Positions 31,908 to 52,083 of a stretch of 64,000 nt of DNA are shown here, piece after piece. The notes beneath the pieces were generated by a model. It was not told where the DNA came from. It ran no database searches and saw nothing but the letters and a program-made list of their open reading frames with translations. Position 1 is the first letter of the stretch; each line of letters opens with the position of its first letter. Position numbers and translations under genes: made by a program. This DNA comes from Gemmatimonas groenlandica. GTDB lineage: Bacteria > Gemmatimonadota > Gemmatimonadetes > Gemmatimonadales > Gemmatimonadaceae. The stretch is taken from positions 62,001-126,000 of the forward strand of contig NZ_CP053085.1 in NCBI RefSeq assembly GCF_013004105.1, written 5' to 3'.

Positions 31908-32957
31908 GTGCCACTCATTCACGCGTCCCCACGGTCGCTCCGATTGGCTGTGCAGTCAGTTCTCATGCTTATCGCCACCGAGCCCTCGTTCCCCCTCGTG
32001 CAGTCGCTTCGGGCGCAGGCCGCTTCCGTTGCGAATAGCCGAACGTCTGCGGCCGCAGTCGTCAGGTATAAGACGGTCAGCATCGACGGGCTCGAAATCT
32101 TCTACCGTGAGGCTGGCCCGCCGACGGCCCCGGTGATTCTGCTTCTCCACGGTTTTCCGACGTCGTCTCAGATGTTTCGCAATCTCATACCGGCCCTGGC
32201 CGACAAGTATCGCGTGATCGCGCCCGACTACCCGGGCTACGGGCAGTCAAGTATGCCCAGCCATGAGAAATTTCGGTACACGTTCGCTAACCTCACCGAC
32301 ATCACGGACAAGTTTACGCAGCGGCTCGGCCTATCGCACTACGTGCTGTACGTCATGGACTACGGTGGTCCTGTAGGCTTTCGCCTGGCGTTGGCTCATC
32401 CCGATCGCGTCGACGCGTTTGTCGTTCAGAACGGGAATGCCTACGAGGAGGGGCTTCGTGACTTTTGGATTCCTTTCAAAGCATACTGGAGAGACTCAAC
32501 AGCCGAGCACCGCAGTGCTCTCCGGAGTCTCCTGGCCAGTGACGCTACGAAATGGCAGTATCTCACTGGTGTCCGCGATACAGCTCGGATCAGTCCTGAC
32601 AACTGGACCATCGATCAACGCCTCTTGGATCGGCCGGGCAATGACGAGATCCAGCTCGACCTCTTCTACGACTACGGCTCGAACGTTCCGCTGTATCCGC
32701 AGTTCCAGTCGTACTTTCGACACTATCAGCCGCCAATGTTGATCGTGTGGGGAAAAGACGATCCGATCTTCCCGTGGCAGGGTGCGATGCCGTATCAAAG
32801 GGATGTAGAGAACCTTGAGCTCCATCTTCTCAACACGGGACACTTCGCACTTGAGGAGAAGGGCGACGAAATTGCGGCGCGCATCCGCGCATTCCTGCCG
32901 AAGTATCTCAAAGGGAAGGCTGGCGCCAGTCGAGTGAGTAGCTCTACGGCACGATAG
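31908..32957 (+). CDS. Alpha/beta hydrolase, epoxide hydrolase/dehalogenase-like
   Basis: Hydrolase of 349 residues (from GTG 31908). A hydrophobic N-terminal stretch (about 10-38) may be an export signal ending SLRAQA. Core motifs: [20 protein letters not shown] (78-97), [10 protein letters not shown] (107-115), elbow [10 protein letters not shown] with Asp151 as likely nucleophile, acid residue in WGKDDPIFP, and His312 in NTGHFALEE. An Asp nucleophile with HGFPTSS is typical of epoxide hydrolases and haloalkane dehalogenases. GTG 31908 is chosen because GAGGA lies 7 nt upstream; the in-frame GTG at 31872 has no such site. It follows the twin-arginine remnant and may once have shared its operon. 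Confidence 0.84.
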
Positions 32958-37300: not shown

Positions 37301-37969
37301 GTGTCGCAGCGTGTTCAGCACATCGTGCACGATGCGCTGTTCCGGGGTGGCGTAGTGCACATCGTTGGTGACCACCCACGGCACACCGAGCTTGGCGGCG
37401 AGTGGACGCAACTGCTGCACAAGCGCGCGCTCTTCCGGCAGACGATGATCCCAACATTCCACCGCGAGATGCTCGCCGAACACGTCGCGCAACTCACCGG
37501 CCGCGGTATAGGCGTCGTCGGTACGGCCCTCGGCCAGCAATTGCGGTACCCAGCCGCGCGGGCAGCCGGTGAGGGCCATGACGCCCTCTACATGGCGCGT
37601 CACGAGCGCCCACGGCACACTGGGGGTGCCGCGATCGCTGTCCATGCGGGCCCGCGTGACCAGCGACGCGATGTTGCGGTAGCCGTCGCGCGTTTCGGCG
37701 AGCAGCACCATGTGGGTGCGTCGTTCGGCGCCCGGGTTGCCGATGTCGGGCATGCGCACGGTGAGCTCGACGCCCAGGATGCCGCCGATGCCGAGCGTTT
37801 CGCAGGCGGTGCCGAAGCGGACTACCCCCCCCATCTCATCGTGGTCGGTGATGGCGAGGGCGGGGTACCCCAGTTCGGCGGCACGCTCGGCCAGTGACTC
37901 GGGGAGCGAGGCCCCGTCGAGCAGGGAAAGTGCCGAGTGGCAATGGAGTTCGACGTACTGGTTCGGCAT
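34331..37969 (-). CDS. dnaE2: Error-prone DNA polymerase III alpha subunit DnaE2
   Basis: Translesion replicative-type polymerase that acts with ImuA and ImuB in damage-induced mutagenesis. 1212 residues. PHP domain at the N terminus (YVELHCHSALSLLDGAS, TDHDEMGG), catalytic aspartates in PPDIDIDF (Asp394, Asp396) and KIDLLGLGML, and a C-terminal OB domain. A long low-complexity insertion (about 462-600; rich in S, T, A, R, E) interrupts the normal sequence between LASLSDRF and LERAGLDPND; the family is usually 1030-1100 residues. ATG 37969 fits the family start; upstream, a direct repeat shared with imuA and a radical SAM gene begins 6 nt before it, leaving no room for a Shine-Dalgarno. Divergent from the photoactive yellow protein gene. 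Confidence 0.95.
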   Translation of the reverse strand: MPNQYVELHCHSALSLLDGASLPESLAERAAELGYPALAITDHDEMGGVVRFGTACETLGIGGILGVELTVRMPDIGNPGAERRTHMVLLAETRDGYRNIASLVTRARMDSDRGTPSVPWALVTRHVEGVMALTGCPRGWVPQLLAEGRTDDAYTAAGELRDVFGEHLAVECWDHRLPEERALVQQLRPLAAKLGVPWVVTNDVHYATPEQRIVHDVLNTLRHERTLDTMGTRLRPNAEWALKKPSLIYQRWRGAEEGVKATLAIAERCAFRLEQLKPSMPAFPLPPGISAQEYLTRLVEQGAYERWNTSRTPKHDTQLAHELAMIGKLDLAGFFLTVWDIVRFARREGILCQGRGSAANSAVCYCLGITAVDPIRMELLFERFLSEGRKEPPDIDIDFAHRDRERVLQYVYNRYGREHAAMVCEQITWRGRSAVRDAARVLGFSVQQGDMLASLSDRFSARSTADALRVDTPSPEGEAAVPPAAPGTTDADRLGQQMIGGTEATTKARVVREASRKVASTQTKSQTKSSAQRAPKGPTDRDGTWAQVIDMQAERKIAADARAQLGPLAKGSDNSRPSETESHEERRNRTTATRDTASGREVLERAGLDPNDERVRRLADVVAGLHQLPRHRSIHVGGFILTEEPLGSIVPIEPASMPGRTVIQWEKDDLDPVGLVKIDLLGLGMLTVVQDCLLYIRHTRGTTIDLGQLDMSDQAVYDVMCRADTVGLFQIESRAQMNTLPRLKPRCFYDLVVEVALIRPGPIQGEMVHPYLRRRAGLEPVTYPHPMLEKVLKRTLGVPLFQEQGMQVAIVAAGFTPTQADQLRRAMGHKRSRERMAQICEELIAGMAKNGIPEETGRRIYNQINAFADYGFPESHAASFALIVYATAWLRHYYAPEYTAAILNAQPMGFYAPGTLIEDAKRHGVEVRPVDLTRSTWDHALEMADGRVLVPNDGVVRWGRQIDPQPMRDVVAVRLGVRLVRGLGAKARRALEAALVHGPFTSVEDAVRRVSLDKTSWRRLAEAGAFDSMFAHEPAERRRRVALWEVMASTRGPELPLAPFEAQPVPTQLPAYTPIELTEADYRMTGLSLAGHPMKHVRPILAPNGVLSAREAHEQGKDGQRVAVAGLVICRQRPGTAKGFVFLTLEDETGMINIVITPDRFEEHALLISRSPMLLIRGTLQVEQHVVNVRAKQFKALELGGGEQHVKGHNYR

Positions 37970-37974
37970 GGGAT

Positions 37975-37992
37975 ACCGAATATACACCGAAA
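37975..37992 (-). promoter_or_regulatory. Direct-repeat box upstream of dnaE2
   Basis: On the minus strand this reads TTTCGGT-GTATA-TTCGGT, two TTCGGT units 11 nt apart, ending 5 nt before the dnaE2 ATG. The same box with different N5 spacer precedes imuA (50808-50825) and the radical SAM gene (51974-51991). It is a likely operator of a common DNA-damage regulator, by analogy with LexA control of imuAB-dnaE2 cassettes; the spacer TATATT could also be a -10 element of a leaderless promoter. Confidence 0.75.
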
Positions 37993-38057
37993 CAGGGGAT
38001 TCCGGCGAGGACCGGAAAGCGGGCACTTCCGCCGCCGTCCTGCCGTTAGATCACGAC

Positions 38058-38477
38058 ATGCCTCAGTCCAATCGCCCCTCCCAGCGTCCCGAGCATACGG
38101 TGAACAACGTGCTCGAGAATGCCGATACGATGTCCAACGAGGAGTTGGACAAGCTGCCGTACGGCATGATTCAGCTGGACGCGACCGGGCGGATCCTGAA
38201 CTACAACGCCGTGGAGTCGAAACTGGCGTCGCTGCGCAAGGAAGACGCGATCGGCAAGCAGTTTTTCACCGAGATCGCGCCGTGCACGAAGGTGCAGGAG
38301 TTCTACGGGCGCTTCAAGGAAGGCGTGATCCGTGAATCACTCGATACGAGCTTCCGTTTTCACTTTGCGTTCAAGCAGAACCCACGTGACGTGACCGTGC
38401 GGTTGCTGTACTCGCGACGGACGCGCACGGTGTGGGTGCTGATCTCGGATCATGAGGGGAAGCCGCTGGAGGGGTGA
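38058..38477 (+). CDS. pyp: Photoactive yellow protein homologue
   Basis: PAS-domain blue-light receptor homologue of 139 residues. Aligned without gaps to the Halorhodospira protein over the chromophore pocket: LPYGMIQLDATGRILNYN, IGKQFFTEIAPCTK, EFYGRFKEGV. Chromophore Cys (Cys69 in the reference) is Cys76; hydrogen-bond partners Tyr42 and Glu46 are Tyr49 and Glu53. Thr50 and Arg52 positions become Ala and Leu, so the photocycle may differ. The C terminus TVWVLISDHEG matches the last strand. No enzyme for making p-coumaric acid (tyrosine ammonia lyase, coumarate ligase) is nearby. It is transcribed divergently from dnaE2 across 88 nt and overlaps the 3' end of the calcium ATPase gene by 28 nt. 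An alternative start is ATG 38130. Confidence 0.87.
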   Translation: MPQSNRPSQRPEHTVNNVLENADTMSNEELDKLPYGMIQLDATGRILNYNAVESKLASLRKEDAIGKQFFTEIAPCTKVQEFYGRFKEGVIRESLDTSFRFHFAFKQNPRDVTVRLLYSRRTRTVWVLISDHEGKPLEG

Positions 38478-41116
38478 TGGCGGCGCAGCCACCACTTCTC
38501 GCCCTCCACGGCGAACAGCACGACCGACGACACCGCCACACACACCGCGAGCTCCCGCCACGACAGCGGCACCGTGTGGAAGATGCGATTCATGGCCGGC
38601 ACGTAGAGCGTGGCCATCTGCAGCCCGAATGCCGCCACGACGGCATAGAACAGCGCCGGATTGCCGCGTACGCCCAGCGTCCAGATCGAGATCCGCTCGG
38701 AGCGAATCGCCATCAGGTGGAACAGCTGCGAGAGCGTGAGCACGGTGAACGTCATCGTCTGCCAATGACTGTTGCCGTCGCGAATGGTGAGCGCCTGCGT
38801 GCCCAACGCCAGCGCGGCCATGAGCAGCCCCACGCGCAGCGCATGTTGCCACAGGCCACCCGCCAGTAAGCTCTCCTGAGGGGAGCGCGGTGGACGTTGC
38901 ATGCTGTCCGGCTCCGCGGGCTCGGCGGCCAGCGTGATGCCGGGTAGGCCATCGGTGACGAGATTCATCCAGAGGATGTGAATCGGCAGCAACGGCAGCG
39001 GCAGGCCCAGGAACGGCGCGAGAAAGAGCGTCCATATCTCGCCCGCGTTCGTGGACAACACAAAGCGCACGAAGCGCCGGATGTTGTCGTAGATGCGACG
39101 CCCTTCGTGCACCGCCTTCACGATGGTGGCGAAGTTGTCGTCGAGCAGCACCATGTGCGCGGCCTCGCGCGCCACGTCGGTGCCGCCGCGCCCCATCGCG
39201 ATACCGATGTTGGCGCGCTTGAGCGCCGGTGCGTCGTTCACCCCGTCGCCGGTCATCGCGACATACTGACCACGCGACTGCAGCGCTTTCACGATGCGCA
39301 GTTTGTCTTCGGGCGCCACGCGGGCGAACACGCGCACGTCGGTCACGCGTTGCGCGAGGTCTTCGTCGGAGAGCCCGGGGATGTCTTGCCCCGTGAGGAC
39401 CACATCGTCAGCACGAGCGATGCCCAATCGCGTGGCGATCGCGAGGGCAGTAGCGGGGTGATCACCGGTAATCATGACCACGTGAATGCCGGCCGCCTGA
39501 CAGGTTTCCACGGCCGCTTTCGCTTCGGCACGCGGCGGGTCGATGAGCCCGATCAGCGCCAGCAGCGTGAGCTCCTGCTCGGCGTGTTCGGCCGAATCCG
39601 GCTGCTCGGATAGCGTGCGCGTGGCGATCGCCAGCACGCGCAGCCCGGACACCGCCATCGATTCGGCCTGCTCCAGCACACGCGCCGCGTCGATCGGCAC
39701 GATCGCATCGGCGCTCCGCATGGAGGTACAGCCGGCGATCACGCGTTCGGGCGCGCCTTTCGTGCACACGATGACGCGGCTCTCATGTCGATGTATCGTC
39801 GTCATGCGCGCCCGTTCCGACGAGAACGGCACTTCGCCCACGCGCGGCCAGTGCGCGTCGAGCGCGCTCTTGTTCACGCCAACGTCGGCGCCGGCGCGCA
39901 CGAGGGCCGTTTCGGTGGGATCGCCCACCAGCGCGCCCTCTGCACCGACGGTGACGTCGGTGCACAACGTCATGACTTCGGACAGCGGAGTGAGATCGTG
40001 CGCCGGCGGCTGTGACAACGTCCACGCCGTGCCGTCGCCGAGCACGACGCTATCCACGTGCATGCGGTTCTCGGTGAGCGTGCCGGTCTTGTCGGTGCAG
40101 ATGTACGTCACCGAGCCAAGCGTCTCCACGGCGGGCAGGCGACGAATCAAGGCCTGCTGCTTCACCATGCGCCGTGCGCCGAGGGCGAGCGAGATCGCGA
40201 CGACGGCGGGAAGCGCTTCGGGAATAGCCGCCACGGCAAGGCTGAGCGCCGTCATGAACATCAGCAGCACCGGCTCGCCGCGCAGGAGACCGGCCGCGAA
40301 GATGATGGTGCAGAGCGCCACCACGGCGATGGCGAGCTTGCGCCCGAGCACGGACAGGCGCTGCTGCAGGGGCGACGGCGATTCGGGCTCGTCGCGCAGC
40401 AGGGCGGCAATGCGCCCGAGCTCGGTGCACATGCCGGTGGCGACCACGATGCCGCTGCCGCGTCCGGCGACGACCGTCGTGCCCTTGAAGCTCATGCACG
40501 TCTGATCGCCCACGGCACTGGCGTTTGCCGGACACGCGGCGGGATCCTTGCGGCTGGGCACGGACTCGCCGGTGAGCGCTGCCTCCTCGATGCTGAGATG
40601 CACTGCGTCGAGCAGACGCATATCGGCCGGCACGATGTTGCCCGCTGCAAGCAGTACGATGTCGCCCGGCACGAGCGCGGTCGATGGCACCGACACTTCC
40701 GTGCCGTCGCGCCGCACCTGCGTGAGCGGCTGGGCGAGCGCGCCGAGTGCGGCCATGGCGCGGTCGGCGCGATACTCCTGCGCGAATCCGAGCACCGCGT
40801 TCAGGATCACGATCGCGATGATGGCAATCATGTCCTCCGGCTCGCCGACAATGCCGGCAATGAGCGCGGCCACCAGCAACACCACCACCATGGTGTCGGC
40901 GAACTGGGCCAGGAGCATGCGCAGCAGGCCACGACTGCGTGCATGCTGCAGCACGTTCTCGCCGTACTCGATCGTGCGCGCCTGCACGACCTCGGCGCTC
41001 AACCCTCGCTCAGCCGAGCTCTCCAGCGTGGCCAGTGTCTGCTCGGCCGACGAAGCATGCCACAGCGTGGTCGCCGCGGGCGAATCGGTAATTGAGGAAT
41101 CGGTGGAGCGGGTCAA
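38450..41116 (-). CDS. P-type calcium-transporting ATPase (SERCA/PMR1-like)
   Basis: Ion-pumping P2A-type ATPase of 888 residues with about ten membrane segments. Actuator motif TGES at 182-185, phosphorylation site Asp342 in CTDKTGTLTEN, and hinge motif GDGVNDAPALK. Calcium-site residues are present: VAAIPEALP in segment 4 (Glu300), STNAGE in segment 5, and NLVTDGLP in segment 6 (equivalents of SERCA N768, E771, N796, T799, D800), so both classic sites appear nearly complete. It probably exports Ca2+ (or Mn2+) across the inner membrane. Transcribed alone, downstream of a palindromic repeat at 41182-41301; its 3' end overlaps the photoactive yellow protein gene on the other strand. Confidence 0.92.
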   Translation of the reverse strand: MTRSTDSSITDSPAATTLWHASSAEQTLATLESSAERGLSAEVVQARTIEYGENVLQHARSRGLLRMLLAQFADTMVVVLLVAALIAGIVGEPEDMIAIIAIVILNAVLGFAQEYRADRAMAALGALAQPLTQVRRDGTEVSVPSTALVPGDIVLLAAGNIVPADMRLLDAVHLSIEEAALTGESVPSRKDPAACPANASAVGDQTCMSFKGTTVVAGRGSGIVVATGMCTELGRIAALLRDEPESPSPLQQRLSVLGRKLAIAVVALCTIIFAAGLLRGEPVLLMFMTALSLAVAAIPEALPAVVAISLALGARRMVKQQALIRRLPAVETLGSVTYICTDKTGTLTENRMHVDSVVLGDGTAWTLSQPPAHDLTPLSEVMTLCTDVTVGAEGALVGDPTETALVRAGADVGVNKSALDAHWPRVGEVPFSSERARMTTIHRHESRVIVCTKGAPERVIAGCTSMRSADAIVPIDAARVLEQAESMAVSGLRVLAIATRTLSEQPDSAEHAEQELTLLALIGLIDPPRAEAKAAVETCQAAGIHVVMITGDHPATALAIATRLGIARADDVVLTGQDIPGLSDEDLAQRVTDVRVFARVAPEDKLRIVKALQSRGQYVAMTGDGVNDAPALKRANIGIAMGRGGTDVAREAAHMVLLDDNFATIVKAVHEGRRIYDNIRRFVRFVLSTNAGEIWTLFLAPFLGLPLPLLPIHILWMNLVTDGLPGITLAAEPAEPDSMQRPPRSPQESLLAGGLWQHALRVGLLMAALALGTQALTIRDGNSHWQTMTFTVLTLSQLFHLMAIRSERISIWTLGVRGNPALFYAVVAAFGLQMATLYVPAMNRIFHTVPLSWRELAVCVAVSSVVLFAVEGEKWWLRRHHPSSGFPS

Positions 41117-41181
41117 TGCGAAGGGGGCACGGGATAGCGGGCGACTTTCGCTGTCGCGTAGTGCGCGTTCCGTGCCATGTG

Positions 41182-41301
41182 AACGGCCAAATGCTTAGGA
41201 GGCAGGAGGGAGGGTGTCAGGAAGGAGGAAGCAGTGAACTACGCCGTGCTGCTTCCTCCCCCCCGATACCCTCCTCCCTGCCTCCTAAGCCGTTGGCCGT
41301 T
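41182..41301. repeat. Long palindromic repeat, copy A
   Basis: Two arms of about 53 nt (41182-41234 and 41249-41301), inverted and highly similar, separated by 14 nt. The core of each arm is CTTAGGAGGCAGG then GGAGGGTGTCAGG or its complement, with GGCCAA at the outer end. It lies 20 nt after the susD stop and upstream of the ATPase. Related copies at 47703-47826 and (one arm only) inside imuB. Likely forms a very stable RNA hairpin that ends or protects the susCD transcript. Confidence 0.85.
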
Positions 41302-41320
41302 TCAACCCATCACCCCGCGC

Positions 41321-42709
41321 TTATCCCCCGAGCACGTTCACGCACCCCTTGGGCGGAGCGGCCAAGCGCTGGTTGCATTCGTCTACCGGGATCGGGACCA
41401 GCGGGAATACGCGGTGCGTGGTCAGCTGCTTCTTGAGCTCGCCGAGGCGGCCGTAGCGGCGTGCGTCGACCCAACGATGACCGTACTCGAAGAACAACGA
41501 GTAGCGGCGATCGTACAGCAGCTCGGTGACCAGATCGCCGGCGAAGTCGGACGCCAGCGCCGGCAATCCACCGGCATTGGTGCGCACGAAATTCAGGTCG
41601 GCGATCGCGGCGGCGCGGTTGCCGAGTCCGATGTTGGCCTCGGCGCGAAGCAGGATGAGCTCTTCGTTCCGGATGATCGGGATCGACGTGACGTTGGTGG
41701 GATACACGATCGGGCGTACGTTCGAGCTGATGCCCTGCGTGGCCAGATTGACCGTGCCGACCACGGCCTTGGATGTGGCCCGCAGATCTCGCGAACCATC
41801 CGTGCGCAAGCGCGCGTCGGTGAGGAACTCCGGAACCGCCACGATGGCCCTCGGCGCCGGATCGAACAGCGGGTTCGTCGCGTCGCCCGACGCCGTGCTG
41901 TACACGTGGTATACGCCGGTCGCGAAACCAGCAGTCGTGCCGGCTGCGGTGCTGATGAACGATTCATTCAGCGCCGTGAGCGCGTCTGCCCAACGACCAC
42001 GATACACCTCGAGGCGCGCTTTGAGGCCACGGTTCACGCGCAGGAAATTCGCTGGCGTGCTGAAGCCGGTGAAGCCGGTGGTCAGTGTGAACGGAAACGC
42101 GGTGCCCGCTGCGGCGAGATCGGTTTTCGCGTCGTCGAACAGCGCGGCAGTCTTCGTATACGCTTCGTCACGGGTGATGAAGACACCCTGCACGGTAGGA
42201 TCCTTGGGCACATCGAACACGAGGCCGAAGGTGTCGCGCACGCGCAGCTGGTTCATGTACTCGAGCGCCATGAACGTCTTCACGAATCCCTTCACCCCGC
42301 TCTTCTGCGCGGCGGTGTAGTCGGGCACCGCATCGACGACATCGAGAATCGTGTAGGCGGTGCGGAGATTGCGATACGAGTTCGACCAACCGGCGTCGGT
42401 GCCGAAACCACCCGGCTCCAGCGGTCCGATCAGCAGGGCGAGCACGTTGCGTGGCTCGGCGCCATCGAGATTCATGATCTCGCGGCCGAAGATGCCGAGC
42501 GTGCTGGCCCAGGTGCCGGCGCCGGCACGCGAGCCGGACAGCACACCGGCCACGGTGGTGTTCACCGTTGCGGCGTTCGGCGAACCTTCCAGCTGCGACG
42601 TGTTCGGGCTGTTGTAATTCGCGATGTCAGCCGAATTGCACGCGACGACACTGGCACAGGCGGCAGCGAACAACAGGGTGCGCGCCTGGCGATGACGGAA
42701 TGTGGTCAT
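41321..42709 (-). CDS. SusD/RagB-family outer-membrane lipoprotein
   Basis: Surface nutrient-binding lipoprotein of 462 residues. Signal with lipobox SVVAC (lipidated Cys24), followed by NSADIANYNSPNTSQLEG. The helical TPR-like core is typical of SusD/RagB: SNSYRNLRTAYTILDVVD, ALEYMNQLRVRDTFGLVFD, IIRNEELILLRAEANIGLGNRAAAIADLNFVR, and the C-terminal LLYDRRYSLFFEYGHRWVDARRYGRL. It partners the SusC porin encoded 2 nt upstream and acts as its lid. With a CocE-type hydrolase in front of the pair, the substrate may be a peptide or ester rather than a glycan; that is inference. The ATG at 42709 directly follows the susC stop. Confidence 0.9.
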   Translation of the reverse strand: MTTFRHRQARTLLFAAACASVVACNSADIANYNSPNTSQLEGSPNAATVNTTVAGVLSGSRAGAGTWASTLGIFGREIMNLDGAEPRNVLALLIGPLEPGGFGTDAGWSNSYRNLRTAYTILDVVDAVPDYTAAQKSGVKGFVKTFMALEYMNQLRVRDTFGLVFDVPKDPTVQGVFITRDEAYTKTAALFDDAKTDLAAAGTAFPFTLTTGFTGFSTPANFLRVNRGLKARLEVYRGRWADALTALNESFISTAAGTTAGFATGVYHVYSTASGDATNPLFDPAPRAIVAVPEFLTDARLRTDGSRDLRATSKAVVGTVNLATQGISSNVRPIVYPTNVTSIPIIRNEELILLRAEANIGLGNRAAAIADLNFVRTNAGGLPALASDFAGDLVTELLYDRRYSLFFEYGHRWVDARRYGRLGELKKQLTTHRVFPLVPIPVDECNQRLAAPPKGCVNVLGG

Positions 42710-42711
42710 GG

Positions 42712-45681
42712 TCAGAAGTCCAGGCTGAAGTTGAGCCAGTAGCTACGGCTGGCAGGATACGCCGCGAGTTCGCGGTTCCGCTGAATGGCATCGGGCACAC
42801 CGCCGGCGCCGAAGTTCTGCGCTTCCGGATCGCCACCGCGGAACTTCGTCCACCAGTACAGATTGCGTCCGCTCAGCGAGAGTTTCGCCCCGCTGGCACC
42901 GGCCCACGTCTTGGCGACCCACTTCTGCGGGATGTCCCAGGTAAGCGTGACTTCGCGCAGCTTCACGTACGACGCGTCCTGATAGAAAATGCGCGTGACC
43001 TGCAGGTACGTGGTGCGGCGCACTTCACCGATCTTGCGGCCGGCGGCGTCGAGCTCTTCGTAGTCGCGCGAGTTCTGTCCGAGGTCGTAGTGACGCCACG
43101 TGCCGTTGGCGAGCATGCCGCCCTTCTGCTGATCGAGCAGCGCGTACAGCGACAGACTCTTGAAGCGTACTTCGTTGCTGAGGCCCGCGCTCCACAGCGG
43201 ATTGCCATCGCCCATCAGCACCGGCACCACCACACGTCCGCCGGCCTGCGGCAGCGTGTCGTTGCCGAACAGCTGCGTGGCCGACTTGCCCTGCTCGATG
43301 CGCACGGCACCGGTCTGCAGCGTGCCAAGCAGGAACGCCGGCACGGGAAGGCTCGTGACCTTGGAGCGGCTCGTGCCCCAGTTCAGGCGCGCATTCCAGC
43401 CCCACGTGGGCGTCTGCACCGGGAATGCATTGATCGAGACTTCTGCACCCGTCACCTGCATCTCGGCGCCGTTCGACGTTTCGCTGCTGAAGCCCGTGGT
43501 GGGGGCCAACGTGCGCGTGATGAGCAGATCGGAGATGTTGCGACGGAATCCGGTCACGGCGAACGTGCCGCGGTTACGGAACACGTTCAGGTCGAGACCT
43601 GCTTCGATTTCACGCTGACGCTCGGGGCGCAGGTCCGAAGACGCGCGCACACTGCCGACGCGGAAGGCACCGAGTCCGCCCACGCTCGACAGGTCGAGGT
43701 TCGTGAACTTCTGGCCATACAGCGGCTGGTTACCCGTTTCGCCGTACGCCAGGCGGATCTTGGCCTCGTCGACCAATCCCGGAGCGAGGTCGGTGAAGCG
43801 GTACGACGTGGCGGCCTTCGGGAAGAGGAAGAACTTCTTCACATCGCCGTTGTTGCTGCTGCGGTCGGCGCGGGCACCGGCCGTGAAGAGCAGCTTCTCA
43901 CGCCACAGCATTTCCGTCTGCGCGAAGACACCGAAGTCTTCCACGCGCAGGCGCGATTCGTCGACGTCGCGCACCGTACCCGACGTGACGACTTCGAGAC
44001 CGCCCAACAGGTTCTGTGCCGACGCACGCGTCTGGTTCAAGTCACGCTCTTCGAACTGCGTGCCCAGCTGCGACGTGATCTTGAGCGACGACTGCGGCGT
44101 CCATCCGTGCACGAGATTCAGGTTGATGTTGCGCTGGATGTTCGTGGTTTTCGAGTTGGCCGAGGTGCCGGGCAATCCGTCGACCGGCTCGTACTGCAGC
44201 GTGGGCGGCGAGAAGATCAGATTCGACTGATTCAGCAGGTCGACACCACCGTACGCGATGAACTGCAGGGTATTCTTGTCGCTGGCGAGCAGGTCGGCGG
44301 TGAGGCGCGACGTCGTGATGTTGCGCCACACGTTCTCACCGTTCTTGAACTGGTCGATCGTCTGCAGCGGATTGGACGGGTAGAACTGGTTCACCGGCCA
44401 GGTGCCGTCGGCGTTGCGCCGCAGGTCGAGGAAGCTCGGGATCTTGGTGAGCGAGTAGGCGATCGAGTTACCGGCGTTGTCGTTGCCGAACAGGCCGCGG
44501 TCGTTCGCGTTGTTCAGGATCTCGTTGCCGACCTGCAGATTGAGCCGCTTGGAGATACGCTGATCCAGATTGATGCGCGCGCTCGTCTTGCGGGCGAAGG
44601 TGTTCTCGACGATGCCGTCTTCGTTGCGACGGCTGATCGACAGGAAGTACTTGGTGTCCTCGCTACCGCCACTGACGTTGAGCGACACGTCCGAGTTCAT
44701 GGGGCGGTTGCCGTACGCCAGCGACTCGTAGTCGAGCACGCGGTTGGCGTCGTAGAACGGCGTGATGCCGGCGCCGAACACGGTCACGGCGTCGGCCAGC
44801 GTGTTGAACTTGCGCGAGCCGTTGCGATACGCGAGATCCGACGTGCCGCCGCCCAAACGCAGCGAGAACTTCGGCTTGCCGGCCCGCCCACGCTTGGTGG
44901 TGATGATGATGACACCGCCCGACGCCTTCGATCCGTAGATGGCGGCGGCCGCCGACCCCTTGAGGATGTCGACGTTCTCGATGTCATTCGGATTGAGGTC
45001 GGCGATGCGGTTGACCGGATTCTCCTGGTTGCCCACGGAGATGCCGGTGCCCGCGGCGCGCGTGACCTTGTTGGTGCCTGAGCCGATGGACACGTCGGAG
45101 ACGATGACACCGTCGATGACGTACAGCGGCTGGGCGGAACCGAGAATGGAGGAGATACCGCGGATGCGAATGCGATTACCGCCGCCGGGCGCACCGGTGG
45201 ACTGCGAAATCTGCGCACCGGCGATCTTGCCTTGGAACGCATTCTCGATGGACTGTGACGACACCTTGTTCACGTCGGCACCACTCACAGTGGCCACGTC
45301 GTTGGCGAGGTTGCGGCGCGAGATACCGGTGGCCTGACCCGTCACGACGACCTGATCGAGATTGAGCACGTCCTTCTTGAGTACGATCTCGAGGGTGCTC
45401 TGCGATGCGCCGACGGTGATGCGGGTCATCGGGTAGCCGAGGCGCCGCACCATGAGAATGACCTCGCGGGCGGGGACGTTCACGAGGGTGAACGATCCGT
45501 CGTCACGCGAGAGCGCACCGATCGCGGTGCCGGTGACCTGCAGCTGCGCCGCGGTGATCGGCGCTCGCGATCCTTCTTCGAGCACCTTGCCGCTGATCGT
45601 GCGCGTCTGCGCAGCGAGCGGGGCGGCGAAGAGCGCGAGGGCTGCGGCGAGCAGGCCTCCGCGCGCGAATACTCCGGTCAT
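42712..45681 (-). CDS. SusC/RagA-family TonB-dependent receptor
   Basis: Outer-membrane TonB-dependent transporter of 989 residues. Signal peptide (1-24, ending APLAAQ), N-terminal carboxypeptidase-D-like domain (about 27-105, ISGKVLEEGSRAPITAAQLQV), TonB-box-like LDQVVVTG (about 113-120), plug with SuSC signature (SIENAFQGKIAGAQIS, NRIRIRGISS, YVIDGVIVSD, IYGSKASGGVIIITTKRG), then a 22-strand barrel ending in WLNFSLDF. ATG 45681 is preferred because GGAGGAAG lies 8-9 nt upstream; the in-frame ATG at 45696 overlaps that site. Second gene of the CocE-SusC-SusD operon, 28 nt after the hydrolase. Confidence 0.93.
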   Translation of the reverse strand: MTGVFARGGLLAAALALFAAPLAAQTRTISGKVLEEGSRAPITAAQLQVTGTAIGALSRDDGSFTLVNVPAREVILMVRRLGYPMTRITVGASQSTLEIVLKKDVLNLDQVVVTGQATGISRRNLANDVATVSGADVNKVSSQSIENAFQGKIAGAQISQSTGAPGGGNRIRIRGISSILGSAQPLYVIDGVIVSDVSIGSGTNKVTRAAGTGISVGNQENPVNRIADLNPNDIENVDILKGSAAAAIYGSKASGGVIIITTKRGRAGKPKFSLRLGGGTSDLAYRNGSRKFNTLADAVTVFGAGITPFYDANRVLDYESLAYGNRPMNSDVSLNVSGGSEDTKYFLSISRRNEDGIVENTFARKTSARINLDQRISKRLNLQVGNEILNNANDRGLFGNDNAGNSIAYSLTKIPSFLDLRRNADGTWPVNQFYPSNPLQTIDQFKNGENVWRNITTSRLTADLLASDKNTLQFIAYGGVDLLNQSNLIFSPPTLQYEPVDGLPGTSANSKTTNIQRNINLNLVHGWTPQSSLKITSQLGTQFEERDLNQTRASAQNLLGGLEVVTSGTVRDVDESRLRVEDFGVFAQTEMLWREKLLFTAGARADRSSNNGDVKKFFLFPKAATSYRFTDLAPGLVDEAKIRLAYGETGNQPLYGQKFTNLDLSSVGGLGAFRVGSVRASSDLRPERQREIEAGLDLNVFRNRGTFAVTGFRRNISDLLITRTLAPTTGFSSETSNGAEMQVTGAEVSINAFPVQTPTWGWNARLNWGTSRSKVTSLPVPAFLLGTLQTGAVRIEQGKSATQLFGNDTLPQAGGRVVVPVLMGDGNPLWSAGLSNEVRFKSLSLYALLDQQKGGMLANGTWRHYDLGQNSRDYEELDAAGRKIGEVRRTTYLQVTRIFYQDASYVKLREVTLTWDIPQKWVAKTWAGASGAKLSLSGRNLYWWTKFRGGDPEAQNFGAGGVPDAIQRNRELAAYPASRSYWLNFSLDF

Positions 45682-45709
45682 CAGGACTTCCTCCATCGGG
45701 GGGTGACGA

Positions 45710-47638
45710 TCATTGCGGCAGGATGTTGAGCGTGAGTTGTGACGGACGGGCGGCCGAACGGAAGACGGTCATCGTGGCGGACTGGAAGTCACTGTCTTTC
45801 GCCTTGTAGATGTTGGGCACGAAGCGCTGCGGATTGCGATCGACGGCGGGATACCACGTGCTCTGCACGTGCACGACGATGCGATGGCCCTTCTTGAACG
45901 TGTGGAACACGTCGTCGAGGGGGACGCGCACGCTGTCCGCCACGTTCATCGCAAGCGGTACGTTTTTGTCGAAGCCTTTGCGCCAACGCGCGCGCGCCAC
46001 GCCGGGGCGCACCAAGCGTTCGTACGCATCGAGGCGCGGGCCGCCCTCGTATTCGGGGGCCGCATCGTTCGGGTATTGGTCGATGAGCTTCACGATGAAG
46101 TCGGCGTCGGTGCCGGTGCTGGCCACATGCAGCAGCGCCGACACCGGGCCCGCGACGGTGACATCACTCGTGAGCACGTCGGAGCGATAGGTGAGCACAT
46201 CGGGGCGACGCGACGCGAAGCGCTGATCTTCGGTGGGATACTGCGCGTTGAAGCCGAAGGTGACGCCCATCGTGTACGGCACCGGCTTCGCGGGATCGCT
46301 GACGTAGCGATCGGCGAACGTGGCGGGCGTTGCACTGCGCGCTTGAGTATTTCCCGGGGCCTCGAAGGCCACGCGTCCGTTCTCGCGCAGATAGAGCGCC
46401 CGCGAGGTGGCGGCTTTGGGCGGCCACGCGTCGAAGCGTCGCCACTGATTGGTGCCGGCTTCGAACACGAGCGCGCCGCCGAACGACTGGCCTTTGCAGT
46501 CATCCTTGAGCAGGCAGCGAAATGCTGGCGCGCCGACGGAGTCGCGAAAGAACTTGCCGGTTGGGCTGCCGTTGGTGAAAGCGCCGAAGGTCGGGAAGTC
46601 GGCGCGATTCCAGCCGCCGTGCGACCACGGTCCCACCACGAACATCTGCTTCGTACTCTTGCTGTTCTCCTGCAGACTGCGATTGAGCCGCAGCATGCCG
46701 TACGGATCTTCGACGTCGTACCATCCGCCCACGAGCAGCACCGCCGGCGTGATGTTCTTGGCGTGCTTCCAGATCGCGCGCGCCTGCCAGAAGGCGTCGT
46801 AGTCGGGGTGCACGGTGATGGAATCCCAGAAGGCGATGCGATTCTGCATCGGGCCGGGGCCGTAGTTGGAAAACGCGCCCACGTTGAGATGCCACCCGTA
46901 ACCGTCGGTGGTGCCGGCGTTGGGGCCGGCCGGATAGCTGGTGATGAGCCCCGTGCGCGGTTGATCGAAGTTCTTCATGAAGTTGTACGTCTGCGACAAC
47001 TTGAAGAGGCCGTTCATGTGGCGATCGTCGCCGAGCCACCAGTCGATCATCGGCGCCGACGGATAGGCGAGTTTGTGCGCGGGGTGCGCGTCGATCATAC
47101 CCGCGGCCACAAAGAAGCCGGGGGCGGAGTTGCCCCACGTGCCGACGCGTCCGTTGTGGTGCGCCACGTTCTTCAGGATCCACTCGATGGTGTCGTACGT
47201 GTCGGTGGATTCGTCGACATCACCGGGCTTGCGATTCGGGCCTTTGTTCGGCGTCATGAACGCGTGATAGCCTTCGCTCATGTAGCGGCCGCGCACATCC
47301 TGATTCACGAAGATCCAGCCTTCGGCATCGAGACCGGGGAATGGCCCCAGCTGCGCGGGGTAGGCGGTCTCGCCATACGGCGCGACGCCGTAGGGGGTGC
47401 GCATGAGCAGTATGGGGACACGCGTGGTCGTGTCGCGCGGCGTGTAGATCGCCGTGTGCAGCTTGGCGCCATCGCGCATCGGGATCACGACTTCGCGTTT
47501 CACGTACTGCTCCCGCACGCGGGCAACCGCGGCGGGGTTCGGCGCGGCACGTGCATCCTGCGCCACGGCGCGGGAGGTCATCATGGTGGTCGCGCTCGCG
47601 AGGAGTGCGGCCATCACGAACACACGAGAGGCAATCAT
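45710..47638 (-). CDS. CocE/NonD-family exported hydrolase (X-Pro dipeptidyl-peptidase-like)
   Basis: Alpha/beta hydrolase of peptidase family S15, 642 residues, with signal peptide (1-27, ending SRAVAQ). REVVIPMRDGAKLHTAIYTP (49-67) opens the catalytic domain; VNQDVRGRYMSEG (111-123) is the family RG-RG block; elbow GTWGNSAPGF places the nucleophile at Ser171. The C-terminal jelly-roll has VRVPLDDVFHTFKKGHRIVVHVQSTWYP. Such enzymes cleave X-Pro dipeptides, beta-lactam acyl groups or cocaine-type esters. The gene heads the operon with SusC and SusD, so its periplasmic product probably acts on what that pair imports. A palindromic repeat lies upstream, between it and imuB. Confidence 0.9.
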   Translation of the reverse strand: MIASRVFVMAALLASATTMMTSRAVAQDARAAPNPAAVARVREQYVKREVVIPMRDGAKLHTAIYTPRDTTTRVPILLMRTPYGVAPYGETAYPAQLGPFPGLDAEGWIFVNQDVRGRYMSEGYHAFMTPNKGPNRKPGDVDESTDTYDTIEWILKNVAHHNGRVGTWGNSAPGFFVAAGMIDAHPAHKLAYPSAPMIDWWLGDDRHMNGLFKLSQTYNFMKNFDQPRTGLITSYPAGPNAGTTDGYGWHLNVGAFSNYGPGPMQNRIAFWDSITVHPDYDAFWQARAIWKHAKNITPAVLLVGGWYDVEDPYGMLRLNRSLQENSKSTKQMFVVGPWSHGGWNRADFPTFGAFTNGSPTGKFFRDSVGAPAFRCLLKDDCKGQSFGGALVFEAGTNQWRRFDAWPPKAATSRALYLRENGRVAFEAPGNTQARSATPATFADRYVSDPAKPVPYTMGVTFGFNAQYPTEDQRFASRRPDVLTYRSDVLTSDVTVAGPVSALLHVASTGTDADFIVKLIDQYPNDAAPEYEGGPRLDAYERLVRPGVARARWRKGFDKNVPLAMNVADSVRVPLDDVFHTFKKGHRIVVHVQSTWYPAVDRNPQRFVPNIYKAKDSDFQSATMTVFRSAARPSQLTLNILPQ

Positions 47639-47702
47639 GGGCTTTCCTGTGGGAAGGGCGAATGGGCGAAGGTACGGTCGACGGAGTGGCGTCGCCAGCG
47701 CT

Positions 47703-47826
47703 CAACTGCCAACTGCTTAGGCAGCAGGGAGGAGGGTGTCAGGGTGGAGGAAGCAGGGGCCAGCGCCGTTGCTGCTTCCTCCACCCTGACATTCTCCTCC
47801 CTGCCTCCTAAGCTTTTGGCCGTTCG
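47703..47826. repeat. Long palindromic repeat, copy B
   Basis: Left arm about 47703-47756, right arm about 47772-47826, inverted and nearly identical over GGAGGAGGGTGTCAGGGT and GGAGGAAGCAG. The right arm ends about 11 nt after the imuB stop. Same family as copy A; orientation and position (3' end of an operon, before the next one) are also the same. Confidence 0.85.
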
Positions 47827-47836
47827 TCGTTTGCCG

Positions 47837-50014
47837 TTAGTCGTACCACCCCTGCAGGTACCAGTGCACGCCGCCGTCGTGGTACAGCAGTAATTCGCCT
47901 TCATCATCGACCACGCACCGCCAGTAATCGCGGGCGTACGTATCGGCACGCCACCAATCGCCACTCAAGCGCTCGGGGCCGTCGGCGCTCGCGATCGACA
48001 GACGTCGTCCGCGCCACCACACGGCGTCGGGTAGGCCGTGTGGTGCTTCTACGTCCACCGGTTCCGGTGCGTCGAGTAACCGGAGCACGGCGTCGGTATT
48101 CGAGGTCGGCGACGCAGCTGGTGATGTTGGTGTGGGGATCGGTGCCGCGCCGAGGGCCATGGCGTCGGCGCTGATCCAGCGACCGGTGTCTTCGGGGCGA
48201 TGACTGTCGCCGGCTTCGGGGTGCACGACCACGGTGCCGGTGTTGTCGGGATCGAGCACGGCGCGCAGTCGCGCGAACACCGCTTCGGCATTCATCGCGG
48301 CGTCGCGCCACGACGGGATCAACAAGTCGCCTTGGTCGGCGGCGAGAGGCGCGGTGGCGGGAATGCTGACGGTGACGCCGATGATCGGCGCGGGGATGCT
48401 CCACCGCTCCAGCAAGCTGCGGCATTGATCGAACAGCGGCTCGAGTCGGGCGAGCGGACGCGCCGGACGCACTTCGCGCGTGATGGAGCGTTGGGGGATG
48501 CCAAGGAGGGAGGCGGCCGAATGCTCTGAAACTGCCAACGGCTTAGGAGGCAGGGAGGAGGGTGTCAGGGGGGAGGGGGCAGGGGGGAACGGCGCGCGCT
48601 GTGCTGATGCCCTTCGTCCTGATTTCTCCGCGGGCGTATCGTCCGACGTCTCCGGCACGTGGATATGCCCGCGCATCTCGCTGCCGATGTCGTCGATGGG
48701 ATACTGACGGCCGGCGTCGAGCACGAGCGTGATCGCGACGGAGGCGGCGGCGCGGCCGTCTTCCACACACTCGCGCAATAGGCGTTGCAACTGCGCGCGC
48801 AACACGAACAACACGGGCTCGGTGCTTTCCACGGCAGCGGGCAACTCCACACTCGCACTGCGCGCCGCTTCCACGCGCACGAGTCCCGGTCGACGGGGGT
48901 CGTCGCCGTGGGCGAGTCGCCACGCGCCGAGACCGGCGGGGCCCCATCGCTTTTCAATATCGCCGGCGTCGAGTGACGCCAGCGCACCGACTGTCCGCAG
49001 GCCGAGTGACTGCAACGCGTCGCGCAGATCATCCTCCATCGGCACCAGCCCCAACGGCGCCGGCGCGAGATACTCGGCGCATTGTCCCGCGGGAATGATC
49101 GTGATGCCGTCGGGCAGCGTGAGCGGATCGCGTTCACGCACACCTTGCGGGTCCCGTTCGCGTACGGCACGACTGCGCGCCCGCGGAGCCCACGTGGCCG
49201 CGCGTGCGGCGACGCAGGAATCGGCGATGGCCACGCGGGCATCGGGGTGCCACTGCTGCGCGATGGTGAGCAGCGTGCGCGCGAGCTGCGCTTCGCCACC
49301 AACGGCATCGAAGCCGTTGGCACCGACCCACCACATGCCGGGGGCACCGGCGACCGGCGTGACCTGCGGACTGGCGGCCAGCAGGGCGGTGCTCGCCGCC
49401 AACACGGCGTCGCGAATGGCGTGATCGTCCCAGGCGCGCACATCGAGATCGGCACAGCAGGCGCGCGCTTCGGGGAGGAGCATGCCGGCGCGGACGCCGG
49501 CGCGGCCGGCGGCGAGGGAGACGGCGCGGAGCTTGGTGTCGATGACGAGGGCGCGGGGGGCGTTGTCCCAGTGCTGTGGGCTTGGGGCTGGGGGCCGTGG
49601 GCCGTGGGCCGTGGGCGGTGGGCTAGTGACGGGAGAGGTCGCGCCGGGGGCGGCGGCCGTAGCCGGGGTCGGCGGCGCGGCGGCGGCCGCGATAGCGCGT
49701 CCAGTCGCGGGTATGCTGGTCGGTTTCGCGGTCGCTGCGCTCCCGCGGCGGGAACGGGCGGTCGCTGCTGATGGTGATGGCACCGTCGGTAAACCCAGCG
49801 GCAAGGCGAGCTGGGTGTCCGGGAAGGTCAACTCCGTACAGGTCGCTGGCGGACACGCCGAGCCCGCCCCAGGTGACGGGGTGTTCGGCATGCTGCTGCT
49901 CGGCGTCGCTGCTGTTGCCGCGGGCGGTCCAGGGACGACGCGTGCTTCGCGCCACCCCGCGCCGATCGGGAATCTCGGAATCCGTACACACGCGACGCGC
50001 CACGACGACTGCAC
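47837..50014 (-). CDS. imuB: ImuB, catalytically atypical Y-family polymerase of the mutasome
   Basis: DinB-like mutasome hub of 725 residues; in known systems it binds the beta clamp and recruits DnaE2. N-terminal VACVRIPRFPIGA (8-20) is the family start, but it is cut from the next conserved block (ALVIDTK, AGVRAGMLLPEARA, about 155-190) by an Ala/Pro-rich insertion (about 21-148). ASPQVTPVAGAPGMWWVGANGFD and VAIADSCVAARAATW follow. Residues about 476-496 (PPAPSPLTPSSLPPKPLAVS) are encoded by half of a palindromic repeat. The C terminus GGVHWYLQGWYD is typical. The acidic catalytic residues of active Y polymerases are not evident, as in known ImuB. Its first 392 nt overlap the open imuA frame. 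Confidence 0.92.
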   Translation of the reverse strand: MQSSWRVACVRIPRFPIGAGWREARVVPGPPAATAATPSSSMPNTPSPGAGSACPPATCTELTFPDTQLALPLGLPTVPSPSAATARSRRGSAATAKPTSIPATGRAIAAAAAPPTPATAAAPGATSPVTSPPPTAHGPRPPAPSPQHWDNAPRALVIDTKLRAVSLAAGRAGVRAGMLLPEARACCADLDVRAWDDHAIRDAVLAASTALLAASPQVTPVAGAPGMWWVGANGFDAVGGEAQLARTLLTIAQQWHPDARVAIADSCVAARAATWAPRARSRAVRERDPQGVRERDPLTLPDGITIIPAGQCAEYLAPAPLGLVPMEDDLRDALQSLGLRTVGALASLDAGDIEKRWGPAGLGAWRLAHGDDPRRPGLVRVEAARSASVELPAAVESTEPVLFVLRAQLQRLLRECVEDGRAAASVAITLVLDAGRQYPIDDIGSEMRGHIHVPETSDDTPAEKSGRRASAQRAPFPPAPSPLTPSSLPPKPLAVSEHSAASLLGIPQRSITREVRPARPLARLEPLFDQCRSLLERWSIPAPIIGVTVSIPATAPLAADQGDLLIPSWRDAAMNAEAVFARLRAVLDPDNTGTVVVHPEAGDSHRPEDTGRWISADAMALGAAPIPTPTSPAASPTSNTDAVLRLLDAPEPVDVEAPHGLPDAVWWRGRRLSIASADGPERLSGDWWRADTYARDYWRCVVDDEGELLLYHDGGVHWYLQGWYD
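48529..48588. repeat. Half palindromic repeat inside imuB (copy C)
   Basis: A single arm, AACGGCTTAGGAGGCAGGGA followed by GGAGGGTGTCAGG, very similar to one arm of copies A and B, lies inside the imuB reading frame and keeps it open. It encodes about 20 Pro/Ser/Leu-rich residues. The opposite arm is absent. Confidence 0.85.
49592..49619. repeat. GGGCCGT tandem repeat in imuB insertion
   Basis: Three exact 7-bp units GGGCCGT plus a fourth with one change lie in the stretch encoding the end of the Ala/Pro-rich insertion of ImuB. A 7-bp unit changes the frame when copies are gained or lost, so this site is prone to on/off slippage in principle. Confidence 0.65.
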
Positions 50015-50807
50015 TGCTCACCTCGATGGACGGACTGCGACCCTGACTATTCCCCCCTTTCTCCACCGTCACCACAAACCGTCGCGAGGCATCGGCGACG
50101 CTGACCGGCGGTGCGGCAACCGGTTCTGGTGATGGCGTTGGTCGTCGTCGGCTCGACAGGGGGCGCATCGAGGTCACGCGCATGGACGGTGGCATACTCG
50201 GCGCGCACACCGGCATCGCGGCGATCCGCAGGCGCACGGTGCCGGCCAGTCGACTGGGGCGCACGTCACGCCCACCGTCGTGATGCTCGAGCACCACGCA
50301 CGCGGCATCGCGTTCCCGCGCCAGCTGCGCCAGGCGCACGCCATGCACGCGCGACAACGGCGGGGCGCCGTCGATGACCACCAGCGCGAACACGCCGCTG
50401 CGCAACAGCAGATCGGCCGTCCATGCACAGCGTTTGCGGTCGGGCGGACGGATCACCACGAAGCGCGCCCCCATCGCGGTCCACGGGGCCGGGGCAAGCG
50501 TGCGGGTGGCGTCGATCCAGGCCACCCACGCGCCGGTGTGCAGCACCTGAGTCACGAGCCGTCGTAGCAGCGCCGTTTTGCCGATCGCCAACGGGCCGCT
50601 GATTTCGGTGACACGCCCCCGCGGGATGCCGCCACCCAGCGCCCGGTCCAACCGCGCCAACCCGGTGCTCCACGGACCGCTGGCCTGCCGGCCAGTCGCA
50701 ACCACCGCCCGCAGCTGATCGCGCAGGAGGGTGAGGTCGGGCCCGGCCGGGGTGATTTCCGGTTCGGCGAGCGTGGTGTCGAGGGCGGGTGCAGGCAAGG
50801 CAGTCAT
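49623..50807 (-). CDS. imuA: ImuA, RecA-like mutasome accessory protein
   Basis: RecA/SulA-related protein of the translesion mutasome. From ATG 50807: LARLDRALGGGIPRGRVTEISG, Walker-A-like GPLAIGKT at 71-78, WIDATRTLAP, LVVIDGAPPL (Walker B region), CVVLEHHDGG, and RRFVVTVEKGG near 250. Known ImuA proteins end about there; the remaining 130 or so codons overlap imuB in another frame and have weaker third-position GC, so the true protein may end earlier by biology or simply run on because no stop occurs. The ATG touches the last base of a direct-repeat box (50808-50825), so there is no Shine-Dalgarno and the mRNA may be leaderless. Confidence 0.87.
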   Translation of the reverse strand: MTALPAPALDTTLAEPEITPAGPDLTLLRDQLRAVVATGRQASGPWSTGLARLDRALGGGIPRGRVTEISGPLAIGKTALLRRLVTQVLHTGAWVAWIDATRTLAPAPWTAMGARFVVIRPPDRKRCAWTADLLLRSGVFALVVIDGAPPLSRVHGVRLAQLARERDAACVVLEHHDGGRDVRPSRLAGTVRLRIAAMPVCAPSMPPSMRVTSMRPLSSRRRPTPSPEPVAAPPVSVADASRRFVVTVEKGGNSQGRSPSIEVSSAVVVARRVCTDSEIPDRRGVARSTRRPWTARGNSSDAEQQHAEHPVTWGGLGVSASDLYGVDLPGHPARLAAGFTDGAITISSDRPFPPRERSDRETDQHTRDWTRYRGRRRAADPGYGRRPRRDLSRH

Positions 50808-50825
50808 ACCGAATAAATACCGAAA
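50808..50825 (-). promoter_or_regulatory. Direct-repeat box at imuA start
   Basis: Minus strand reads TTTCGGT-ATTTA-TTCGGT immediately followed by the imuA ATG. Same 11-nt period as the boxes at dnaE2 and the radical SAM gene. Confidence 0.75.
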
Positions 50826-50898
50826 GCAAAAGGCGACGGAAAGAGCGGATTCTGGAAAACACGATGAGAAAAGGCTCAGAAACGGGAGTCCGAAAACG

Positions 50899-51963
50899 CT
50901 ACAGCAGCACCAGCTGGAGCTCGGGGGCCAGCGGGGCGGGCAGGGCAACTTCCTCGTCGGCGCTGCCCTCGTCGTCCCGTCGATACTCCCGTGTGGTCAG
51001 GCCGTACTTCCGGCACAGCCGTTCAATGACCTGCTGCAGCCCAGCCCGGTAGTTCTCGGCGGCGTACACGCTGTGGCGGTATGTGGCCTCGTACTTGGCC
51101 GAGAGTTCCGGAAAGTTCTCGCGGATCACGGGCAGATACCGTTTTCGCGAGGCCGACCGAAGCCGCAGGGCACAGGCCCCCAGGCTCCTAGCACCAGCCG
51201 CTGCCACCTGCTGCACCAGCGCCTCCAGCATGGCTGGCGCATCGGTGATCCCCGGCAGCACCGGCATGCAGTTCACACTCACCGCCAGCCCGGCGTCGGC
51301 CAGCCGTCGTACTCCCCGCAGCCGTGCGTCGGGCGTGGGCGCCCGGGGCTCCAAGCGGCGCGCCAGTTCGCGATCGACGGTAATGAGCGAGACGTGCACC
51401 TGCACCGTGTGTCGTTCGGCCAGCCGCTGCAGCACATCGACGTCGCGGGTGACCAGCGGACTCTTGGTGATGATCACGATGGTGAAGTCTCGCGCGCTCA
51501 GCAACGACTCCAGAATCTCCCGCGTGACGCGGAAGCGCCGCTCGGCCGGTTGGTACGGATCGGTGGCCGAGCCGATCACCACCGAATCGCCCGGACGGGG
51601 CGAACGCGACGACCGCAACGCCTCGCGGATACGTGCGCCAGCGTGCTCCTTCACCAGCACCCGTCGCTCGAAAGCCAGCCAGGGCGGCATGGCGTTGGCG
51701 ACCTCCCGGCCCACCTCGCCGGCTCGCTCGAGCGTCCAGCGATGGGTGTCACGGGCGTAGCAGTAGGCGCAGCCGAAGGCGCACCCCACGTACGGATTGA
51801 TCGACCAGAAGCCCATGCCGGTGGCGGCCGGCGGATTGAAGATCCCGCGCGACGGAGCCGCGTGATATTGCAGGTCGGCCTGGGCCGAGAGCAGCCGGAG
51901 TGGATCGGGCCGCAGCGGGTCGGGCGCAAACGCCGGTGCAACGGGAGGGTCGGCGGGGCGCAT
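50899..51963 (-). CDS. Radical SAM protein (Rv2578c/SplB-like)
   Basis: Radical S-adenosylmethionine enzyme of 354 residues of the PA0069/Rv2578c family, distantly related to spore photoproduct lyase. The [4Fe-4S] ligands are Cys61, Cys65 and Cys68 in the motif CAFGCAYCYARDTHRW (CX3CX2C); SINPYVG precedes it. Downstream VVIGSATDPYQPAERRFRVTR and FTIVIITKSPLVTRDVDVL are typical. Function of this family is unproven, though it is often placed near DNA-repair genes; here it precedes imuA by 91 nt and carries the same direct-repeat box, supporting a role in the damage response. ATG 51963 agrees with the family; an in-frame start at 52047 would read through the box. Confidence 0.87.
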   Translation of the reverse strand: MRPADPPVAPAFAPDPLRPDPLRLLSAQADLQYHAAPSRGIFNPPAATGMGFWSINPYVGCAFGCAYCYARDTHRWTLERAGEVGREVANAMPPWLAFERRVLVKEHAGARIREALRSSRSPRPGDSVVIGSATDPYQPAERRFRVTREILESLLSARDFTIVIITKSPLVTRDVDVLQRLAERHTVQVHVSLITVDRELARRLEPRAPTPDARLRGVRRLADAGLAVSVNCMPVLPGITDAPAMLEALVQQVAAAGARSLGACALRLRSASRKRYLPVIRENFPELSAKYEATYRHSVYAAENYRAGLQQVIERLCRKYGLTTREYRRDDEGSADEEVALPAPLAPELQLVLL

Positions 51964-51973
51964 ACTGGACCCT

Positions 51974-51991
51974 ACCGAAGAAAAACCGAAA
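51974..51991 (-). promoter_or_regulatory. Direct-repeat box upstream of the radical SAM gene
   Basis: Minus strand reads TTTCGGT-TTTTC-TTCGGT, ending 10 nt before the ATG. Third member of the box set. Confidence 0.75.
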
Positions 51992-52083
51992 GCGCAAGAC
52001 GGGGCAGAATGTGTGACCTGTGACCACGGGATTCCACGCTCAGGCATTGTCCGCCGTCCCGGCGCACCCTACTCTAGAGACAC

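Follow-up and report, generated by a model that had tools for sequence, protein, structure and literature searches.

The direct repeat TTCGG-N6-TTCGG is very probably the LexA (SOS) operator of Gemmatimonas groenlandica and of its phylum, Gemmatimonadota, as judged by comparison of sequences across genomes. Two copies of this core precede the only full-length lexA gene in the genome, and conserved boxes are found at lexA, recA, imuA and dnaE2; the proposal of an SOS-type operator in the original prediction, made from three boxes in a single stretch of DNA, is therefore upheld.

These three boxes match TTTCGGT-N5-TTCGGT and lie on the minus strand of the window, by which we mean the whole 64,000-nt stretch of DNA analysed here. 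They are the predicted LexA operators before dnaE2 (37975-37992, TTTCGGTGTATATTCGGT), imuA (50808-50825, TTTCGGTATTTATTCGGT) and a radical SAM gene (51974-51991, TTTCGGTTTTTCTTCGGT). When the window was read again, all three were present as originally described, with unit starts 11 nt apart in each, and with 5, 0 and 10 nt, respectively, between the box and the ATG codons at 37969, 50807 and 51963. No other copy had been noticed in the window, and there are indeed 0 further exact matches across it; the sole site with one mismatch, at 32271 on the plus strand, is within an open reading frame. The number of exact copies expected from base composition is 0.0007 for the window and 0.06 for the 5.18-Mb genome, and the probability of at least three in the window is approximately 7e-11, so the finding is real and far above chance. 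A genome-wide scan for scattered copies, which had been proposed as a check, returned three exact matches, all of them those of the window before dnaE2, imuA and the radical SAM gene.

The core TTCGG-N6-TTCGG is common to five boxes, the three in the window and the two at lexA, and comparison with relatives suggests that the outer T's of the longer pattern belong partly to the flanking promoter. There are 17 core matches in the genome. The 12 beyond the five boxes are mostly intragenic and only modestly exceed the 5 matches of a reversed control pattern, and we therefore rejected the idea that they represent a larger regulon in this genome. Relaxed matches in G. groenlandica likewise occur at about the level expected by chance, except for a site at recA and a possible one at uvrB. 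The latter, a reversed one-mismatch box (ATCGGCTTTTCTTCGG; G000:C1:1109394-1109412, L411) just 5' of a uvrB-like gene, may itself be due to chance.

The lexA gene (G000:C1:1295824-1296429) lies 1.2 Mb from the boxes of the window and encodes a protein of 202 aa that matches PF01726 and PF00717 above the Pfam cut-offs and retains the motifs of a canonical LexA: VAAG, with the Ala-Gly cleavage site, and the Ser/Lys motifs GDSM and TVKR. Its promoter reads TTGCAC-TTCGGCCTGTGTTCGG-T-TAGCGT, and a second box, TTCGGCCTGCATTCGG, follows 36 nt further on; the gene is thus preceded by two tandem TTCGG direct repeats, each with a period of 11, as an autoregulation site would be. Box 1 is situated between a conserved TTG hexamer and a TA...T hexamer spaced by 17 nt. 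The predicted promoter of the radical SAM gene (51969-51997, minus strand) has the same layout, with a -35 of TTGCGC at 51992-51997, a -10 of TAGGGT at 51969-51974 and the operator as the 17-nt spacer between them. At both genes, with the promoter assigned from sequence, box 1 occupies the -35/-10 spacer, which would explain repression.

This placement could also be read as showing that the box is a mere part of the core promoter, recognized by a sigma factor and shared by genes with the same promoter type, since it falls exactly in the TTG/TA spacer at both lexA and the radical SAM gene. Box 2 of lexA largely refutes this: its half-sites are invariant, yet no conserved -35 or -10 surrounds them, so it represents an operator separated from a promoter. 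A promoter element would also fit poorly with an exact motif that occurs only three times in the genome, or with the species scan described below, in which the pattern falls before lexA; we consider it the least credible of the alternatives and give it almost no weight. As a LexA operator, the box would hold a LexA dimer on two tandem half-sites, one helical turn apart, within the -35/-10 spacer, where the bound repressor would keep RNA polymerase off the promoter. Upon DNA damage, activated RecA would promote self-cleavage of LexA, and lexA, recA, the radical SAM gene, imuA-imuB and dnaE2 would be switched on. Symmetric dimers do not usually bind direct repeats, and this counts against the LexA-operator reading.

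Conservation across the phylum, the other check that had been suggested, supports that reading. LexA is present in 119 of 121 phylum genomes, and TTCGG-N6-TTCGG occurs in the 250 nt upstream of lexA in 67/67 genomes from the main part of Gemmatimonadota, representing eight of the nine families drawn. A spacer of 6 dominates between the TTCGG units, others being rare except for the gap between the two boxes, and when repeated 5-mers before lexA are counted without bias, TTCGG at period 11 ranks first. A palindromic reading was tried and rejected, as inverted and everted TTCGG at spacers of 0-15 were absent or found as single cases in these 67 genomes. In the ninth and most distant family, an outgroup (f9), the box takes the form TTCGC-N6-TTCGC before lexA in 5/5 genomes, between TTGACT and TATAAT or similar hexamers.

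These data bear on whether the box is simply the alphaproteobacterial LexA box, GTTC-N7-GTTC (of Caulobacter, for example), acquired by descent or transfer. Both are direct repeats of period 11 with a TTC core (PMC9578287, PMC8565304). However, the leading G is not conserved in Gemmatimonadota, whereas the two G's after TTC are common to all sites; the sites for this comparison were gathered by TTCGG, although unbiased counting also gives TTCGG first. The half-site is thus TTCGG, with no fixed G ahead of it and with TTCGC as its counterpart in the outgroup family, and GTTC does not recur in both half-sites here, in line with the earlier statement that the two sequences differ. The presence of the box throughout the phylum and its TTCGC form in the outgroup point to a long vertical history rather than recent transfer, making an alphaproteobacterial origin very unlikely. 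The Gram-positive box of Bacillus, CGAAC-N4-GTTCG, shares a TTCG core but is a palindrome with a 4-nt spacer, whereas the Gemmatimonadota box is not inverted; TTCGG..CCGAA at spacers of 0-15 was found before lexA in at most 1/67 genomes.

A set of 84,980 species genomes was scanned with the lexA promoter-operator pattern, CTTGCNC-TTCGG-N6-TTCGG-N-TANNNT. Among the matches listed (119 stretches, 120 sites checked), 114 sites lie directly before lexA. No gene was assigned to the remaining 6, five of which are close to one end or the other of the sequence retrieved; the last one (L318) is apparently on the same contig as another locus (L262) where the box precedes a TIGR03916 radical SAM-like gene. 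Nearly all records among these matches are Gemmatimonadota. In a separate search of the 121 phylum genomes, a pattern comprising the -35 plus the box matched in 96, versus nine single matches for the reversed control; a minority of its sites precede unrelated or unclear frames. In four species of families f5 and f7 (L246, L258, L259, L260), CTTG plus the box stands before a flavin amine oxidase gene, possibly an unexpected SOS target.

A Candidatus Falkowbacteria (Patescibacteria) record has TTGCGC-TTCGG-N6-TTCGG-G-TATAAT (L308, 491-520) before its own LexA gene, the product of which is 43% identical and has Glu at the residue-45 position; the TTCGG operator may thus extend beyond Gemmatimonadota. 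Records labelled Kuenenia (L306) and Gammaproteobacteria (L328) contain boxed, Gemmatimonadota-like lexA genes (87% and 59% identity, respectively) and are probably mis-binned contigs.

The change of half-site is accompanied by a change in LexA itself. The sequence of helix 3 is ATVHEHL or a near match in every TTCGG lineage and ATVHKHL in the five TTCGC ones, such that residue 45 is Glu with TTCGG in 134/134 cases and Lys with TTCGC in 5/5, most of the 134 having come from a box-dependent scan (without that selection, there are approximately 41 Glu/GG and 5 Lys/GC). That residue 45 varies together with the last base of the half-site ties LexA itself to the box, although the co-variation amounts essentially to one evolutionary split. 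The equivalent residue of E. coli LexA, Glu45, contacts DNA (PMC3091678). On the partner strand Glu would favour C and Lys would favour G, which would fit the change between TTCGG and TTCGC.

We considered whether a regulator other than LexA, such as a diverged second LexA paralogue or a PafBC-like factor, binds the box. About 20 genomes of other genera do encode a second LexA (30-44% identity), and LexA-independent damage responses exist in other organisms (PMC12288472). The hypothesis of a second LexA was nevertheless discarded for G. groenlandica, the genome of which has no such gene: a LexA search found a single LexA in this species and in each of its six sampled congeners. Moreover, the box is doubled before lexA itself, its last base changes with residue 45 of LexA, and the paralogues with a readable helix carry different helix-3 sequences. 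A different regulator is thus exceedingly unlikely. Ten of the paralogues (L201, L203-L207, L209, L211-L213) are diverged, at about 30-35% identity, with a helix 3 like STKTVSDLL where it could be read, and within about 10 kb of the second-LexA loci that were fetched we found no similarity to imuA, imuB or dnaE2. A further second LexA (L202, G090:C262) has the helix 3 SSSTVHAHL and a palindromic box of the Gram-positive type, CGAACACATGTTCG, upstream; it is on a short contig, possibly a mis-binned one.

The genes that carry the box are those expected of a damage response with LexA as its repressor: sites precede recA as well as the error-prone polymerase genes (imuA, dnaE2 and Pol IV-type genes). 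The recA box is a constant variant, TTCGTANTTTNTTCGG, found in 27/30 genomes, that of G. groenlandica among them, and dnaE2 or imuA is boxed in most congeners. In the window, dnaE2 (34331-37969, minus strand) encodes an error-prone DNA polymerase III alpha subunit (NCBIfam PRK05672, 1235 bits versus a cut-off of 939), and the gene is directly preceded by its own box in four congeners (G039, G055, G078 and G068). The RecA-like/ImuA gene imuA (49998-50807, minus strand; PF00154, with NCBIfam NF033429 below cut-off) has a provisional 3' end and overlaps imuB (47837-50014, minus strand), a relative of Y-family polymerases with sub-threshold DNA polymerase IV matches that is contiguous with imuA in relatives; given the overlap of their frames, the two are probably cotranscribed. 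Many relatives also have a boxed imuA, as does the congener G111 (L067). Because the ATG at 50807 is inside the predicted -10, TATGAC (50803-50808, minus strand, read from sequence), imuA may more probably start at the in-frame TTG at 50798; in G111 the two elements do not overlap. The -35/-10 assignments at imuA and dnaE2 are weak.

The cassette is contiguous in some relatives, and in one of these (G019) the radical SAM gene, imuA, imuB and dnaE2 follow one another with one box in front, whereas in the window about 10 kb of other sequence interrupts it and a separate box precedes each transcription unit. The intervening region (38450-47638), between imuB and dnaE2, holds genes for a calcium P-type ATPase, an outer-membrane-receptor-like protein with a lipoprotein-like partner, and an S15 peptidase. 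Among the matches of the -35-plus-box pattern at places other than lexA and the radical SAM gene, many precede imuA and dnaE2, one a DNA polymerase IV gene, two DinB-family genes and one an SbcD-like exonuclease gene; in four genomes of order-level relatives the box also precedes another radical SAM gene, of the UDG-linked TIGR03916 type. SplB (COG1533) and UDG-linked COG4277 genes belong to the SOS networks of Bacteroidetes (PMC8565304), and by our reading TIGR03916 would be the same UDG-linked system as that of the COG4277 genes. In both groups, SOS control extends to radical SAM or UDG-linked repair genes, but Bacteroidetes have a non-canonical LexA and binding motifs other than the Gemmatimonadota box.

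The radical SAM gene of the window (50899-51963, minus strand; 354 aa, PF04055) had been assigned to the same regulon, and wider sampling agrees: it is boxed in 29/30 relatives, on the same strand in 26 and on the opposite strand in 3. The TTG/TA layout of its promoter recurs in relatives, and its transcript may be leaderless, since 5 nt separate the -10 from the start codon. The box might be there merely by virtue of proximity to imuA, with the gene itself no functional member of the SOS response, since the gene is directly 5' of imuA here and in several relatives. Yet the radical SAM gene retains its box in genomes that lack an adjacent imuA and yielded no dnaE2 of the window type, which makes the gene a regulon member in its own right, and SplB-type radical SAM genes are reported to be SOS-regulated in several species of other groups (PMC8565304, PMC7739468). 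We therefore regard an effect of proximity as highly unlikely. In more distant families an exact box was found in only 1/9 of the upstream stretches fetched, so the gene is firm as a target only for the two nearest families. Three congeners (G039, G055, G078; L229, L230, L233) have no radical SAM match but keep the promoter stretch, box-TAGGGTCCA, which now stands before imuA in at least two of them.

The best NCBIfam models for this radical SAM protein, those of the Rv2578c and PA0069 families, match below cut-off, and the spore photoproduct lyase (SPL) model is absent from its matches, so that it has no assignment at the level of an equivalog. When its AlphaFold model (pLDDT 85.6) was compared with the PDB using Foldseek, the six best matches were all spore photoproduct lyases (TM about 0.55, 14-16% identity), and the cysteines of its CX3CX2C cluster motif, C61/C65/C68, are invariant. 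A PDB sequence search with the protein found no relative; the similarity comes from the fold comparison. The modelled fold is consistent with an SPL-like protein that may act in DNA repair.

Direct-repeat LexA operators are already known from Alphaproteobacteria and Balneolaeota. The Balneolaeota operator, the direct repeat TTACACATATTTTWTACATA (PMC7739468), controls a network in which recA, translesion polymerases and a radical SAM protein are likewise found, the last also being present in Gram-positive SOS networks (PMC7739468); its half-site, however, is unrelated to TTCGG, and independent origins have been proposed for such operators (PMC7739468). In the open-access literature, a scope that leaves out most subscription papers, we found no report of a LexA motif for Gemmatimonas, Gemmatimonadetes or Gemmatimonadota, and the TTCGG sequence reported for no phylum. 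The box differs from both the alphaproteobacterial and the Gram-positive motif, yet on comparative grounds we are highly confident that it works as a LexA operator.

Sequence comparison alone thereby defines the SOS operator of an entire phylum, most of which is uncultured; one more phylum joins the direct-repeat LexA systems, and the box can be used at once for predicting regulons in metagenomes. The results further suggest that a radical SAM enzyme resembling SPL is central to the damage response of these bacteria and is linked with the ImuA-ImuB-DnaE2 mutasome. We tentatively propose a broader scenario, one we hold to be somewhat less than an even chance, in which a separately evolved direct-repeat LexA was ancestral to the phylum, a single helix-3 position, occupied by Glu45 or Lys45, determines the final base of each half-site (TTCGG or TTCGC), and the SPL-like radical SAM gene belongs to the core of the regulon. 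If true, this would provide a natural specificity switch for studying the recognition of tandem sites by a symmetric LexA dimer. The Glu/Lys difference at residue 45 lends itself to testing that recognition directly.
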